Assembly (NCBI GenBank): GCA_005883075.1
Contig: VBAX01000051.1
Coordinates: forward strand, 1 to 58,433
Length of the DNA: 58,433 nt
Source: Candidatus Bathyarchaeota archaeon
GTDB taxonomy: Archaea; Thermoproteota; Bathyarchaeia; 40CM-2-53-6
Direction of reading: 5' to 3'
The notes under the pieces are model-generated. The model did not search any database. It was given only the letters and a program-made list of their open reading frames with translations, and was not told where the DNA came from. Shown piece by piece: positions 3,586 through 53,100 of this stretch (the first letter of the stretch is position 1; each line of letters begins with the position of its first letter). A program made the translations under genes and the position numbers.

Positions 3586-4617
3586 TCAGAGCTTCTCTTT
3601 TGGGCCGGGGTCCGGGACATTTCTGTAGAAGACTTTCACATACGGTCTTGTAAGATAGATAATCGCAATGATGGATGTCGGAAACTCGATACCGTTCCCA
3701 GTGAGCAACCCAGAAAGCAACTCAGGACTCGCACCCAGCGAGGATGCATCCAAGAAAATCGAAGATATGCTTGTTGCGATTCCAAGACTCCAAGCCCAGC
3801 TCTTGCCCGTCCGGAGAACCAGCCCCGCCAGAATCTTGAGAGAGCCGAGAGCCAACGCGACGAACGCTAGAACCAATAATATTGTTGAGATTAGTCCAAT
3901 AGTTCCCGCCGGGAGGCCTATTCCTGAAAAGTCAGACGCAGTGATGACCGGCGGAAAGAGGATGTTTCCGACCCCAGCAAGTATGAGGTTTGCCCCACCG
4001 AGAATGGACAAGGCCGCGATAAAGGAGATACCCCTAGGCATCCTACCTTCAAGAACAGTGTCATGCTTCACGAACACCTCTCTCAGAATAACGACGATTC
4101 CGACAAGCGCGAGAGGCGTTCCAAAGCTCAATGATCCGAAAGCAAAGAGAATGAGCGAGAATCCTGTAACGAACACGCCTAGAAGGGCCAGGCCTTCACG
4201 GGTCATCAGATACGACACCTCCCTCAACAGCAGACTGCGATACCTGATGACCAAGAGAAGCAGTATACTAGCCGAGATTGCTCCGATGAAAAAATCATAG
4301 GTCAGCTCAGACTGATAGTTGCCGAGGGTAAGAAGGAGTCCAACCTCGTCACCAATGAACCCCGCACCGAGACCATACATCACCGCGTAAGCCCTATCGA
4401 GCCGCTCACTCTTCCAAGTGATCGCAAGCCAGCCCGCAATCCCCATCAAAGCTATCCCATACCAGAAATGATGGAAGTGGATGCCCTGTTGTTGGATCAC
4501 AATCGTCGGATTGAGTGTTGCAAAAAGCCGTGACCCAAAGAAACTGATTATGAACGATAATAGACCGATGAAGGAAAGGGCCGGACGAAACGTGCCTATG
4601 TGAAACCTTTGGAGCAT
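3586..4617 (-). CDS. Polytopic membrane protein, unknown function
   Basis: The 343-residue product has about nine hydrophobic helices. Its most distinctive feature is a His-rich motif, GIHFHHFWYG, at about residues 45-55, followed by an acidic GDEVGLLL segment near residue 90. Together these could bind a metal or haem within the membrane (inference). The C-terminus is short and basic. I do not recognise a characterised family. It converges with the DUF1801 gene, leaving only the hairpin repeat between them. Confidence 0.75.
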   Translation of the reverse strand: MLQRFHIGTFRPALSFIGLLSFIISFFGSRLFATLNPTIVIQQQGIHFHHFWYGIALMGIAGWLAITWKSERLDRAYAVMYGLGAGFIGDEVGLLLTLGNYQSELTYDFFIGAISASILLLLVIRYRSLLLREVSYLMTREGLALLGVFVTGFSLILFAFGSLSFGTPLALVGIVVILREVFVKHDTVLEGRMPRGISFIAALSILGGANLILAGVGNILFPPVITASDFSGIGLPAGTIGLISTILLVLAFVALALGSLKILAGLVLRTGKSWAWSLGIATSISSIFLDASSLGASPELLSGLLTGNGIEFPTSIIAIIYLTRPYVKVFYRNVPDPGPKEKL

Positions 4618-4744
4618 TGGAATCTGCGAGAATTAGTTTTGCAATAATAGGGTTTAGGACGCGGAAGCGTCGAAGCTCCTCATCCTTTCACTGCAGTTTC
4701 TAAGCCATCGTTAAGATCTGAAATAATAGGCATGGCTTTCAACG

Positions 4745-4752
4745 CTTATATC
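4745..4752 (+). promoter_or_regulatory. TATA box for a leaderless lamin-tail gene
   Basis: CTTATATC is centred 27-28 nt upstream of the GTG at 4776. This is the usual archaeal TATA-to-start distance for a leaderless transcript, and it supports the GTG start. Confidence 0.55.
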
Positions 4753-4775
4753 GGATTTTCCTCAATACTCACCAC

Positions 4776-5174
4776 GTGAAGTCGTCTAACCGAATTATCA
4801 TTGAACACATCAGCCACAATCCGCATGGAAAAGATGCTTCCGACAAGCTGAACGAAGAATTTGTTGTTCTCGAAAACGAGGGAACCGAAAAAATCTCACT
4901 AGCAGGCTGGACTCTCACCGACGAGACCGCTACAGGAGTGAGACGCCACACCTACAAGTTTCCACAAACAGTCTCCCTCTCCTCTCGCGAGAAGGCCTAC
5001 GTTCACACTGGGCCAGGAGAGGATTCGTTCGAAGAAGGTAAACCCTCCAAATGGATCCTACACTGGGGAAGACACGCTTTCGTCTGGAACAACGAAGGCG
5101 ATACCGCCACACTCTTCGACGCCAAAGGAAACAAAGTAGACTCGCTCCAAGTGGTCGCCCTCAAAGCGACCTAG
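4776..5174 (+). CDS. Lamin-tail (LTD) domain protein
   Basis: The 132-residue protein is essentially one lamin-tail domain. It has the family pattern of an early NEEFVVLENEG strand, then GWTLTDETA, then a KFPQTVSLSSREKAYVHTG strand pair. It ends with LHWG..AFVWNNEGDTATLFDAKGNKVDS. In prokaryotes this Ig-like fold usually occurs in secreted nucleases or surface proteins, but here it stands alone and has no signal peptide. It may act as a small binding module. The GTG start is chosen from the TATA box 27 nt upstream. It converges with the membrane-protein gene that follows. Confidence 0.85.
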   Translation: MKSSNRIIIEHISHNPHGKDASDKLNEEFVVLENEGTEKISLAGWTLTDETATGVRRHTYKFPQTVSLSSREKAYVHTGPGEDSFEEGKPSKWILHWGRHAFVWNNEGDTATLFDAKGNKVDSLQVVALKAT

Positions 5175-5181
5175 TCCACGC

Positions 5182-5667
5182 CTAACGAGTAAGGGCCGGC
5201 GTTCTAGTCCTGACGCTCCTGCGTATCAGAGAGAGGGAGACAAGAGCTGTCACAACCCCGTAAACCAAGTGGAAGATGAAGCTGCCTCCATCAAACATCA
5301 AGTTCGAAAGGTCAGCAGGAGCAAGAAGATCCGTAATCGGTACGTAGACCAGAATCCAGACCGCGATTCCACCCAGCAGGCCTACCCAGAAGCTCTTCCT
5401 TGTCGTATCAAGAGCGAACCGTTTGAACAGCGCAGTGGTTGCGATGAATATTCCACCGGCGATGAGGCCTACGAGGAAGTGCAAAGCCCAACCAGTCAAT
5501 AGTGGAGAAGCTAGACCAAGTTTCCGCGCGATGGTCACATAGAATACTTCCTGGTCGAGAACGAACGCGCTGAGGCCTGCGAGAATGCCTAGAGCTAGAG
5601 CGCCAACAATCCCGCCTATCGCTCCAGCCTTCAAGCCTCGAAATGCGGAATAACTCGGGAACTGCAT
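5182..5667 (-). CDS. Small four-helix membrane protein
   Basis: The 161-residue product has four clear hydrophobic helices: about residues 12-38, 55-78, 92-112 and 128-148. Gly-rich GAIGGIVGALALGILAG lies in the first. The ends are short and basic. No family is recognised; the shape resembles small DUF-type envelope proteins. It is convergent with the lamin-tail gene, with 7 nt between stops. Confidence 0.7.
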   Translation of the reverse strand: MQFPSYSAFRGLKAGAIGGIVGALALGILAGLSAFVLDQEVFYVTIARKLGLASPLLTGWALHFLVGLIAGGIFIATTALFKRFALDTTRKSFWVGLLGGIAVWILVYVPITDLLAPADLSNLMFDGGSFIFHLVYGVVTALVSLSLIRRSVRTRTPALTR

Positions 5668-47330: not shown

Positions 47331-48314
47331 ATGTCGGGACAGTGGACACTCCCAATTGAACTGAGAGAGTTCAGACCAGAGGACTACGGGAGACTGGCCC
47401 ACGTCTTTGGTTCAATCTTTCCCGATTACGACCGAACGCCCGAGGAATGGAAGTTTGATGACGAGAGTCTCGACAAGTCGAAGTTCCATTTCAAACGATA
47501 CTCGTGCATAACGAAAGAGAGCGAAGACCCAGTCGGGTTCGCTCAGTGCCAACATATGCCCTGGATGTATCATCCGAAGAAACTCTGGTTCGATATCTGG
47601 GTCGATCCACAGCATCAGAGAAAGGGCATAGGGAGCGCACTCTACGATCGGCTGATCCAGGACTTCAGGGACCTAGGTACTGTCACCTCTTGGACCGGTG
47701 TAAAAGAGGACATGCCCTACCCGATCAAATTCGCTACTAACCGAGGATTCCATGAGAAGATGAGGGCTTGGGAATCACGCCTCAACCCCGCCACGGTCAA
47801 TCTCTCAGCTTTCCAAAAATACGTGGAGAAGGCATCCCAACATCGAATTCGCCTCGTTACATTGGCCAGTGAGATGAAGAGCGACCCGGAATGCTACACC
47901 AAACTTCACGCTCTGGTTCAATCCGTCTCTGAAGATATTCCTCGACCTGAACAGTTCACACCTGTCTCTTTCGAGCAGTGGTCAGCTTTCGAGATGAAGA
48001 ACCCCAACCTAGTCCCCGAAGGCTACATGATAGCGAAAGATGGCGACAAATACGTGGGTATGAGCACTGTATGGAAGGCTCAGAAGGATCTCAAAGGACT
48101 CTATCAGGGACTTACAGGAGTAATTCGAGAATACCGGGGACGGGGAATAGCGGTCGCGTTGAAGCTCAAAGTCATCGAATTCGCAAGAGACAACAAGTAC
48201 GAGAAGCTCAAGACCTGGAACGACTCGACCAACGCACCCATGCTCGGAATCAACATCAAGCTCGGCTTCAAACGAGAAGTAGGCTGGATAACCATGGAGA
48301 AGAACCTGGCCTAG
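47331..48314 (+). CDS. Tandem GNAT acetyltransferase
   Basis: The 327-residue protein has two GNAT domains. The first has LWFDIWVDPQHQRKGIGSALYDRL (acetyl-CoA loop) and WTGVKEDMPYPIKFATNRGF. The second has GLTGVIREYRGRGIAVALKLKVIEFA and TWNDSTNAPMLGINIKLGF. The N-loop of the second is the more canonical acetyl-CoA site (RGRGIA). It heads a three-gene unit with the C45 acyltransferase 7 nt later. Confidence 0.9.
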   Translation: MSGQWTLPIELREFRPEDYGRLAHVFGSIFPDYDRTPEEWKFDDESLDKSKFHFKRYSCITKESEDPVGFAQCQHMPWMYHPKKLWFDIWVDPQHQRKGIGSALYDRLIQDFRDLGTVTSWTGVKEDMPYPIKFATNRGFHEKMRAWESRLNPATVNLSAFQKYVEKASQHRIRLVTLASEMKSDPECYTKLHALVQSVSEDIPRPEQFTPVSFEQWSAFEMKNPNLVPEGYMIAKDGDKYVGMSTVWKAQKDLKGLYQGLTGVIREYRGRGIAVALKLKVIEFARDNKYEKLKTWNDSTNAPMLGINIKLGFKREVGWITMEKNLA

Positions 48315-51103: not shown

Positions 51104-51186
51104 CTTGATTATTCGCCCCTAGATTATCCATGGGATTGCCTCCATTAGGATGTTGTGGGGAACGACATTCAGAAGTGCTAAACAGA

Positions 51187-51194
51187 TTTAATAG
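51187..51194 (+). promoter_or_regulatory. TATA-like box of the M20 gene
   Basis: TTTAATAG lies about 41 nt before TTG 51232. It is inside the longer in-frame extension that begins at 51130, which argues against that upstream start. Confidence 0.45.
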
Positions 51195-51231
51195 AAATAC
51201 AAAACCGGAAAGCTGGTATGGCCGTGATCGG

Positions 51232-52431
51232 TTGGACTTACTGAAAGAAGCGGCGGAGATCGAACCCGAGATTATCAAGGTCCGACGAGAGATTCATCAG
51301 AAGCCCGAATTGGCCTACCACGAAGAAGTCACGTCCAAGCTGGTCGCGGAGAGACTCGAAGCTCTCGGAATACAGGTCAAGCGAGGAGTTGGCGGAACGG
51401 GAGTTCTAGGGGTTCTCAAGGGTCCAAGACTGGGGAGGGTCGTCGCTCTCAGGGCGGACATGGATGCTCTTCCCCTGGATGAGATGGCTGATGTCGAGTT
51501 TAAGTCCAAAGTCAAGGGAGTAATGCATGCGTGTGGGCATGATACGCACGTGGCCATGCTCCTCGGAGCGGCCAAGCTTCTCGTCAAACATAAGGACGAG
51601 CTCCAGGGCACTGTGAAATTTCTCTTCCAACCTGCCGAAGAGCATGGCGGAAGGGGTGGAGCAAAACCAATGATCGAAGACGGAGTCATGAAAGATCCCA
51701 AGGTCGACTACGTATTCGGACTCCACATCGCCGGAGACCACAACTCCGGTGTCCTCGGCTTCAGACCGGGTCCCTTCGCCGCATCACCTGACACGTTCGA
51801 GGTCCGAATAATCGGGAAAGGAGGTCATGGAGCCGCGCCACATGAAACGATAGATCCAGTTTACGTAGCCGCTCAGGTGATTATCGCTCTTCAAGGTGTG
51901 TCCGGGCGAATGATCGATCCCATGCAACCTATCGTAATCTCGGTCGGAGCGGTACACTCAGGGACCAAGGAGAACATCATACCGGACGAAGCCGTGTTGC
52001 AGGGCACGATACGGACTCTCGACGAGGTTACTAGGAAGAGAGCGAAGGCGAAAGTGGAAGGTGTCGTCAAAGGCGTCTGCAAGGCGTTCGGTGCCAAAGC
52101 GATCGTCGAGTCCGAAAAGGACGCGTATCCCGTCACAGTCAACGATGAAAAAGTGACAGAACGGGCGATGAAGATCGTGAGAAAGATTCGTGGCGGGACA
52201 AAGGTGAAGTTGATAGAGCCGATGCTGGGAGGCGAGGACTTTTCCAGATTCCTACATGAGGCCCCCGGCACATTCTACTTCCTCGGTACAAGGAATCCTG
52301 CGAAGGGATGCATCTATCCAAATCATAGTTCAAGGTTCAAAGTCGACGAGGACGTTTTGAAATATGGAGCCGCATCACTTGCTCTTTTGGCGGTAGAGTT
52401 CACGGACCCAACCGGCCCGAGCAAGGATTGA
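51232..52431 (+). CDS. M20 family amidohydrolase
   Basis: The 399-residue enzyme (from TTG 51232; a frame with ATG at 51130 is 34 residues longer but spans the TATA-like box) has VRREIHQKPELAYHE, ALRADMDALP, HACGHDTHVAMLLGAA, FLFQPAEEHGGRGG and a late GGEDFSRF. These match N-acyl-L-amino acid amidohydrolase/hippurate hydrolase-type M20 enzymes with two metal sites. It releases amino acids from acylated forms. Exact substrate unknown. Confidence 0.92.
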   Translation: MDLLKEAAEIEPEIIKVRREIHQKPELAYHEEVTSKLVAERLEALGIQVKRGVGGTGVLGVLKGPRLGRVVALRADMDALPLDEMADVEFKSKVKGVMHACGHDTHVAMLLGAAKLLVKHKDELQGTVKFLFQPAEEHGGRGGAKPMIEDGVMKDPKVDYVFGLHIAGDHNSGVLGFRPGPFAASPDTFEVRIIGKGGHGAAPHETIDPVYVAAQVIIALQGVSGRMIDPMQPIVISVGAVHSGTKENIIPDEAVLQGTIRTLDEVTRKRAKAKVEGVVKGVCKAFGAKAIVESEKDAYPVTVNDEKVTERAMKIVRKIRGGTKVKLIEPMLGGEDFSRFLHEAPGTFYFLGTRNPAKGCIYPNHSSRFKVDEDVLKYGAASLALLAVEFTDPTGPSKD

Positions 52432-52577
52432 ATTTTCTTAGCTGGTGTAACAAATATCTCCGTTGGCCAGCGACGTCGGCTGAGAGTCCTCCGGGTCAGA
52501 CTCTTATTTTTGAGAGGTTGAATCAGAACTAAAAAAATCGGGTTTTGATATTTGACACCGAACCTTCAAGTTCGCTC

Positions 52578-52670
52578 TCAGGCGCTCTTGTCGGTTGTGG
52601 TGGGTTGTGTTTGTTCCATGGTTCCGCCGCATCCGCATCCGGGTCCGCAGCAGCAACAGCTCAAAGTCAC
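52578..52670 (-). CDS. 30-residue Cys-rich peptide (metallothionein-like)
   Basis: GTG 52670 follows a strong Shine-Dalgarno (GAGGTGA on the minus strand, 52680-52674) and the frame ends with TGA at 52580-52578. The first 16 residues contain six Cys (MTLSCCCCGPGCGCGG); a Thr/Gln-rich tail follows. The density and spacing suggest metal or cluster binding. It is divergent from the HxlR gene, with one shared AT-rich promoter core 38-39 nt from both starts. It is too short for homology to be judged by eye. Confidence 0.6.
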   Translation of the reverse strand: MTLSCCCCGPGCGCGGTMEQTQPTTTDKSA

Positions 52671-52691
52671 GCTTCACCTCGGTTAGTGAAT

Positions 52692-52743
52692 TACTTTTCT
52701 AAAGTATTTAAACGGGCAAGTACCCAAACAGTAACGGAGTTAC
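52692..52743. promoter_or_regulatory. Bidirectional promoter with two palindromes
   Basis: TATTTAAA (52705-52712; TTTAAATA on the other strand) is centred 38-39 nt from both the HxlR ATG and the Cys-rich GTG. TACTTT-TCT-AAAGTA (52692-52706) overlaps it and GTAAC-GGA-GTTAC (52731-52743) lies at the expected HxlR transcription start. These are good operator candidates. Confidence 0.6.
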
Positions 52744-52746
52744 ACG

Positions 52747-53100
52747 ATGGTAAGGACGAAAGAAGGAGAACCATGCTGCACCTGCCCCTGCCCATGCGAA
52801 GGAATAATCGAGATTATCGGGAAAAAATGGGCACTCTGCGTACTCGCACTCTTAGGAAACGATGGAACCCTACGATTCAACAAACTTGCCGAGAAACTTC
52901 CGGGAATAAGCGCGAAGACACTGACGGAAGTTCTGAAGGATCTTCAGCGAACCGGACTGGTTAAACGTCAAGCCTTCGCCGAAATTCCACCACGTGTAGA
53001 ATACCATCTGACCAAGGAAGGAAATGAGCTAACAATGCTCGTAGCACCGTTAATGGTCTGGGCTGATAACAGGACAGGGCTTGTCAAGTTCGAATCTTAG
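52747..53100 (+). CDS. HxlR-family regulator with N-terminal Cys cluster
   Basis: The 117-residue protein has the HxlR winged helix: IIEIIGKKWALCVLALLGNDGTLRFNKLAEKLPGISAKTLTEVLKDLQRTGLVKRQ, then the EYHLTKEG wing. Its start contains CCTCPCPCEG, more Cys than the usual single conserved Cys before the helix. That could bind metal or sense oxidants. The start fits the promoter spacing. Its last 17 nt overlap the convergent cyclodeaminase gene. Confidence 0.92.
   Translation: MVRTKEGEPCCTCPCPCEGIIEIIGKKWALCVLALLGNDGTLRFNKLAEKLPGISAKTLTEVLKDLQRTGLVKRQAFAEIPPRVEYHLTKEGNELTMLVAPLMVWADNRTGLVKFES

Follow-up and report, generated by a model that had tools for sequence, protein, structure and literature searches.

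A head-to-head HxlR regulator and cysteine-rich micro-peptide in soil Bathyarchaeia, a probable thiol- or soft-metal-responsive gene pair

In the stretch of DNA analysed here (58,433 nucleotides, hereafter the window), a very small Cys-rich open reading frame faces the gene for an HxlR-family regulator. Is the small frame a gene, does it belong with the regulator, and what could such a pair do? The original prediction described a six-Cys ORF head to head with an HxlR bearing CCTCPCPC, and both ORFs are present, together with the following signals:

52578..52664, minus strand: Cys-rich micro-peptide gene, 28 aa, TTG start, MSCCCCGPGCGCGGTMEQTQPTTTDKSA
52674..52680, minus strand: Shine-Dalgarno (SD) sequence GAGGTGA of the peptide gene, 9 nt 5' of the TTG
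52531..52537, minus strand: T7 run 40 nt 3' of the stop, probably the archaeal terminator for the peptide transcript
52705..52712, no strand assigned: shared TATA box of the two divergent promoters, TATTTAAA / TTTAAATA
52731..52743, no strand assigned: palindrome GTAAC-GGA-GTTAC, candidate HxlR operator, directly 5' of the hxlR ATG
52747..53100, plus strand: HxlR-family regulator, 117 aa, PF01638 E=8.2e-25, with N-terminal CCTCPCPC (residues 10-17) and C31

The micro-peptide gene and its conservation

The peptide carries six Cys in the block CCCCGPGCGC, and its gene ends at 52578 on the minus strand. Translation most likely starts at the TTG at 52664, which gives 28 aa. The 30-residue length first proposed relied on a GTG at 52670; the ORF itself stands, but this start is disfavoured because it lies only 3 nt after the SD and is rarely common to relatives, with an in-frame equivalent in 2 of 16. 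In four loci (L003, L006, L007 and L009) a start in the GTG frame is unusable, and several relatives have a stop in that frame. Runs of T5 or longer follow the peptide stop by 15-44 nt in 13 of the 16 loci. Because of these T-runs and the promoter anatomy described below, the peptide is most likely encoded by a stand-alone gene.

Orthologues of the regulator (E below 1e-43) were found in 17 genomes, all from one family of Bathyarchaeia comprising three genera, and in no other family among 257 genomes of the class; the nearest named records to the window are soil metagenome-assembled genomes (MAGs), such as VBAY01000034. Upstream DNA was on hand for 16 orthologous loci, and the peptide counts refer to those. 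Conservation of the frame in relatives that keep hxlR had been posed beforehand as the test of the prediction, and in every one of the 16 loci an ORF begins 5-9 nt past an SD and encodes 17-35 aa, of which 6-8 are Cys; in one of them, L013, CTG would be the start codon. The predicted ribosome binding site and promoter are likewise borne out, with an SD of the form G[AG]GGTGA, or more fully G[AG]GGTGAAG, in 16/16 loci and a TATA box (TATTTAAA) common to both genes.

The products are diverse, among them MDDCCPCCCGCCGPTAKGTP (genome G012), MDGCECPCGCGCCGPGF (G002), MSCCCCGPGCGCGG..., MENCCCSGCGCSCGCSGG..., MDDCCPCCCGCCGP..., MGCCSCGGCCGGGSCC... and MDSGCDCDPGCC...CSCV. Phe, Trp, Tyr and His are absent from 14 of the 16, and the other two have one such residue each. 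In being small, rich in CC and CxC and largely or wholly free of aromatic residues, these products have the composition that a metallothionein in the functional sense would show. Searches with the window peptide against Pfam, and with it and two relatives against NCBIfam, gave no family at E<=1, metallothioneins included, which for so short a peptide is weak evidence.

A chance origin of the ORF was rejected, since the observed Cys count had P <= 0.0005 in each of the 16 loci (2000 dinucleotide shuffles per locus). When 363 kb containing 1041 SD-like sites were scanned for SD-preceded mini-ORFs with >17% Cys, all of those found were these peptides or tandem copies at the same locus. Among the five closest relatives, pN was 0.017 and pS 0.180 in the Cys block (pN/pS about 0.09), and the corresponding values for the hydrophilic tail were 0.270 and 0.525. 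This pattern indicates that the Cys-rich part of the peptide is under purifying selection. Lengths and Cys spacing drift.

A profile search with the peptide matched this family only and, tandem copies apart, this locus only. One copy, in G007, lies at a contig end that leaves the position of hxlR out of view. In two genomes, G005 and G010, a second, divergent copy with its own SD lies 0.8-1.2 kb past the first, and no further copies were found elsewhere in the genomes:

L093 (G005), 6471 and 7244, minus strand: tandem peptide copies
L102 (G010), 8016 and about 6851, plus strand: tandem peptide copies

The flanks of the locus differ in stability: the side of the formiminotransferase-cyclodeaminase gene is kept among relatives, and the peptide side is variable. 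The next gene on the peptide side in the window (51130-52431), which lies on the opposite strand, encodes an M20-family peptidase that had no match at this place in any relative compared; an aldo/keto-reductase-like gene, named by eye, follows the peptide in three species only. G017 retains the two flanking genes, the cyclodeaminase and, at the opposite end, a glycosylase-like gene, and has neither the peptide nor the divergent promoter; what is left of hxlR is a remnant with a broken frame and about 53% identity over the C-terminal half. This is the single case of co-loss of the two partners. Both genes are also missing from G004 and G019, which are incomplete MAGs.

The shared promoter and the regulator

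The peptide-hxlR intergenic span of 110 bp holds a TATA core, TAAATACT, that is invariant in the 16 loci, the peptide-side SD, and palindromes of the form GTAAC-N3/4-GTTAC. An exact palindrome stands directly 5' of the hxlR ATG in 9/16 loci and directly 5' of the peptide SD in 7/16, and 13 promoters have at least one. To judge from the distance to the TATA box, each palindrome would overlie the region where one of the two transcripts is expected to begin. In the window the hxlR-side palindrome is intact and the second is degenerate, and none was found in the L011 promoter; both facts count against control by a palindrome-bound regulator as proposed below. Across eight genomes of about 1.5-2.5 Mb there were 2-4 such palindromes per genome. 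In G003 both of them fall in this promoter, in G010 and G016 two of three do, and in G018 the genome-wide scan placed none there. With so few sites per genome, we rejected the idea that the palindrome marks a wide regulon. One of the additional sites, GTAAC-N3-GTTAC at G014:C17:48307-48319, lies upstream of a further HxlR-family gene (47924-48235), at a distance of about 70 bp, which suggests that this gene and the pair have an operator type in common.

Taken together, the conserved pairing, the shared palindromic promoter, selection on the Cys block and the co-loss in G017 uphold the original view of a compact module of regulator and peptide.

The regulator matches PF01638 (MarR/DUF24) with 86.9 bits against a cut-off of 20.8, as befits a winged-helix protein; as a member of ArsR/SmtB it falls below threshold (HTH_metalloreg, 17.4 bits against a cut-off of 55). 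Residues C10, C11, C13, C15, C17 and C31 are invariant in a nine-sequence family alignment. Among its best solved relatives are HxlR and HypR of Bacillus, with which it shares family, fold and a sensing N-terminal Cys: C15 falls at the aligned position of Cys14 in HypR and Cys11 in HxlR of B. subtilis, residues with known reactivity towards oxidants, allicin and formaldehyde (PMC6943732, PMC7835342). The window HxlR differs from HypR, YodB and HxlR of Bacillus in having four further N-terminal Cys and C31 and in lacking Lys at Cys+2. That Lys, part of the Cys11-Lys13 formaldehyde crosslink, is replaced by Cys17, which sets the protein apart from the formaldehyde-sensing subtype, and for this reason the exact crosslink chemistry is not expected here. 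The apparent target also differs, being a micro-peptide rather than an oxidoreductase or the hxlAB operon. A structure model from an 11-sequence alignment (pLDDT 75.7) shows a good winged helix; residues 1-21, which include the Cys cluster, are under 50, so the model says nothing on the sensor site. A single-sequence model was poor (pLDDT 38).

Related pairs and known systems

More distant HxlRs with an N-terminal CxCPLEG form the sister clade, in a tree with many unresolved forks. By inspection, a small Cys- or Cys/His-rich protein lies opposite HxlR in 27 of 39 related Bathyarchaeia loci with upstream DNA present, several of which come from one genus, so that the counts are not independent. 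Cys/His-rich partners are exemplified by MCCDCGCGSGHHGEGHHHEEGHERGHG..., and the commonest types are MC.ECGCG..HHH..RRFLTKAEK..LK.YAEELKKEL, MC..CxYPEKLKGTPxxCS.EQI.ECHPNMK.HPC, and peptides of 19-28 aa such as MCAECGCGCGGQAKKRIKSDKPKK and MVSKECGCGCATKNSAKKEVKKKG. These pairs resemble the one in the window in their head-to-head order, a GAGGTGA-like SD and a CxCP[LC]EG regulator; unlike the window peptide, most of the partners have 50-75 aa, His-rich parts and a C-terminal helix (RRFLTKAEK..LKxYAEELKKEL). We note that these partners of 50-75 aa, Cys/His-rich and with a charged helix at the C-terminus, recur head to head with a CxCPLEG HxlR in L071, L072, L074, L075, L076, L080, L083, L086 and L110; of those scanned, none reached the cut-off of a Pfam family, and some matched DUF5320 weakly. 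In another class of the phylum, a 32-aa Cys-rich ORF, MPIEKVRAEKEKKEDACWCGCGCCVTSISEKG, faces an HxlR with CPCSLEG and lies about 129 nt upstream of the HxlR match (L216, G315).

Four of the 39 loci (L159, L160, L165 and L175) have a CPC-motif, copper-type P1B ATPase gene within about 2.5 kb, where about 0.4 such loci would be expected by chance on a rough estimate that takes about three such genes per genome. Further tblastn matches to P1B ATPases, in L163, L168 and probably L151, were dropped on motif as other P-type ATPases. L165 has two ATPases. In L159/L082 (G225) the pair is accompanied by a CPC ATPase and an HMA-thioredoxin fusion, and in L160/L083 (G146) by a CPC ATPase, YHS and an ArsC-like LMWPc gene; the latter two loci are candidate archaeal copper/arsenic islands. 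Within the window's own family no metal transporter was seen next to the pair, P1B ATPases lying at other loci, which counts against a role in metal handling. The window genome itself has two heavy-metal P1B ATPase genes that stand head to head (L190; G000:C133:946-2661, minus strand, and 3688-5421, plus strand).

The pair was originally thought to be of a kind not described before. We found no pair of an archaeal HxlR with a metallothionein or other small Cys-rich protein in the open-access literature, most subscription journals lying outside this coverage; the same divergent layout, however, is known from smtB-smtA, and the pairing recurs across the class. In Synechococcus PCC 7942, smtB and smtA are divergent genes for a sensor and a Cys-rich chelator, with an operator/promoter of roughly 100 bp that contains inverted repeats (PMC4353254, PMC8790569). 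The window pair likewise combines a sensor gene with a small Cys-rich gene around a shared palindromic operator/promoter, its palindromes being seen in sequence only. SmtB, however, is of the ArsR type, whereas the regulator here is an HxlR (PF01638), and SmtA belongs to a metallothionein family, whereas the peptide is far shorter and has no family match. We do not class the pair as a member of the smtB-smtA system, since its regulator falls outside ArsR/SmtB and its peptide has no hit to a metallothionein model: the layout is of that type, built from unrelated parts. The metallothioneins SmtA, PmtA and MymT are also small Cys-rich products, partly under a metal sensor; the peptide here differs in its length of 17-35 aa, its archaeal origin and the absence of a sequence-family match. 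Metallothioneins are, to our knowledge, hardly known from archaea. For T. gammatolerans, orthologues were reported absent (PMC3407056).

What the pair may do

The reading that best accounts for the locus is a two-gene divergon in which a thiol- or soft-metal-responsive HxlR controls the making of a minimal metallothionein-like peptide; we give it a probability of roughly 0.6. Repression, the inducer and metal binding are the parts that we infer. An HxlR dimer would occupy the palindromes, cover the start region of each promoter and keep both low. Soft metal ions (of the Cu+, Cd, Zn, Hg or As class) or thiol-reactive stress would engage the cluster C10, C11, C13, C15 and C17, and HxlR would be released from the DNA or reshaped on it. 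A very short transcript would then yield a product of 17-35 aa, full of CC, CxC and CxxC and without bulky residues, which would chelate metal as thiolate clusters, much as a minimal metallothionein might, and thereby reset the sensor. The earlier suggestion that the regulator senses and the peptide binds is plausible, given the position of C15, which matches that of the sensing Cys in HypR and in HxlR of B. subtilis, and the copper-type P1B ATPases near related pairs.

Alternatively, HxlR could, like its Bacillus counterparts, respond to disulfide stress, quinones or aldehydes, with the peptide serving as a sacrificial thiol scavenger or redox buffer rather than a chelator. In favour of this, the N-terminal Cys aligned with C15 has a role in redox or aldehyde sensing in the solved relatives HypR and B. 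subtilis HxlR, and some related HxlRs face a thioredoxin-fold protein (3/39 loci) or a methyltransferase-like gene (3/39). Moreover, the inducers known to us for HxlR-family regulators are oxidants, quinones and aldehydes and not metals, which counts against a metal signal. Metals nevertheless agree better with the CC and CxC clusters of the peptide and with the sister loci in which Cys/His-rich partners accompany CPC ATPases, and the formaldehyde switch has lost its Lys to Cys17, so that we regard a purely thiol-directed role as unlikely, if a serious contender. The choice between metal and redox is beyond what sequence can settle; we favour metal because of the density of CC and CxC, the His-rich sister proteins and the P1B neighbours.

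It is improbable that the peptide instead regulates HxlR by passing metal or a disulfide to its matching Cys cluster or stripping it from there. Both partners have Cys clusters and are present and lost together, but the length, the Cys number and the tail of the peptide change rapidly, against 74-98% identity of HxlR among relatives, unlike what a fixed protein-protein interface would give. Still harder to sustain is the idea that the gene encodes the precursor of a Cys-rich peptide that is modified or exported (RiPP, metallophore or toxin-like): a short, fast-evolving peptide with a variable tail might fit, but no gene on the peptide side is conserved across the family, and hence no dedicated modification enzyme, protease or exporter, and the peptide is too short for leader and core and has no signal-like hydrophobic stretch. 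Least credible is that the frame encodes no functional protein and is an attenuator leader with poly-Cys, an RNA element or a product of chance. Leader ORFs of the poly-Cys kind do act as attenuators in mycobacteria, but here the T-run past the ORF, the bias to synonymous change and the lack of an Rfam match at the locus speak against such readings. Attenuation of a downstream operon was rejected, the frame not lying directly upstream of a co-transcribed gene: in the window the next gene has the opposite orientation, and among relatives different genes follow.

On the metallothionein-like reading, the most likely role of the pair in soil Bathyarchaeia would be the buffering of toxic soft metals, or of thiol-reactive stress, by a miniature system. 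A bolder version, to which we give slightly less than even odds, is that this is a new type of archaeal metallothionein system, in which HxlR senses soft metals through CCxCPCPC and controls ultra-short (17-35 aa), fast-evolving metal-thiolate peptides, as the most reduced members of a broad archaeal family that pairs HxlR with small Cys/His proteins and is tied to copper export. The 16 natural variants, with 17-35 aa and 6-8 Cys, can be synthesized, so that the idea can be tested without culturing the archaeon. If true, it would add a new branch of metal or thiol sensors and a class of genes far below the usual annotation length.
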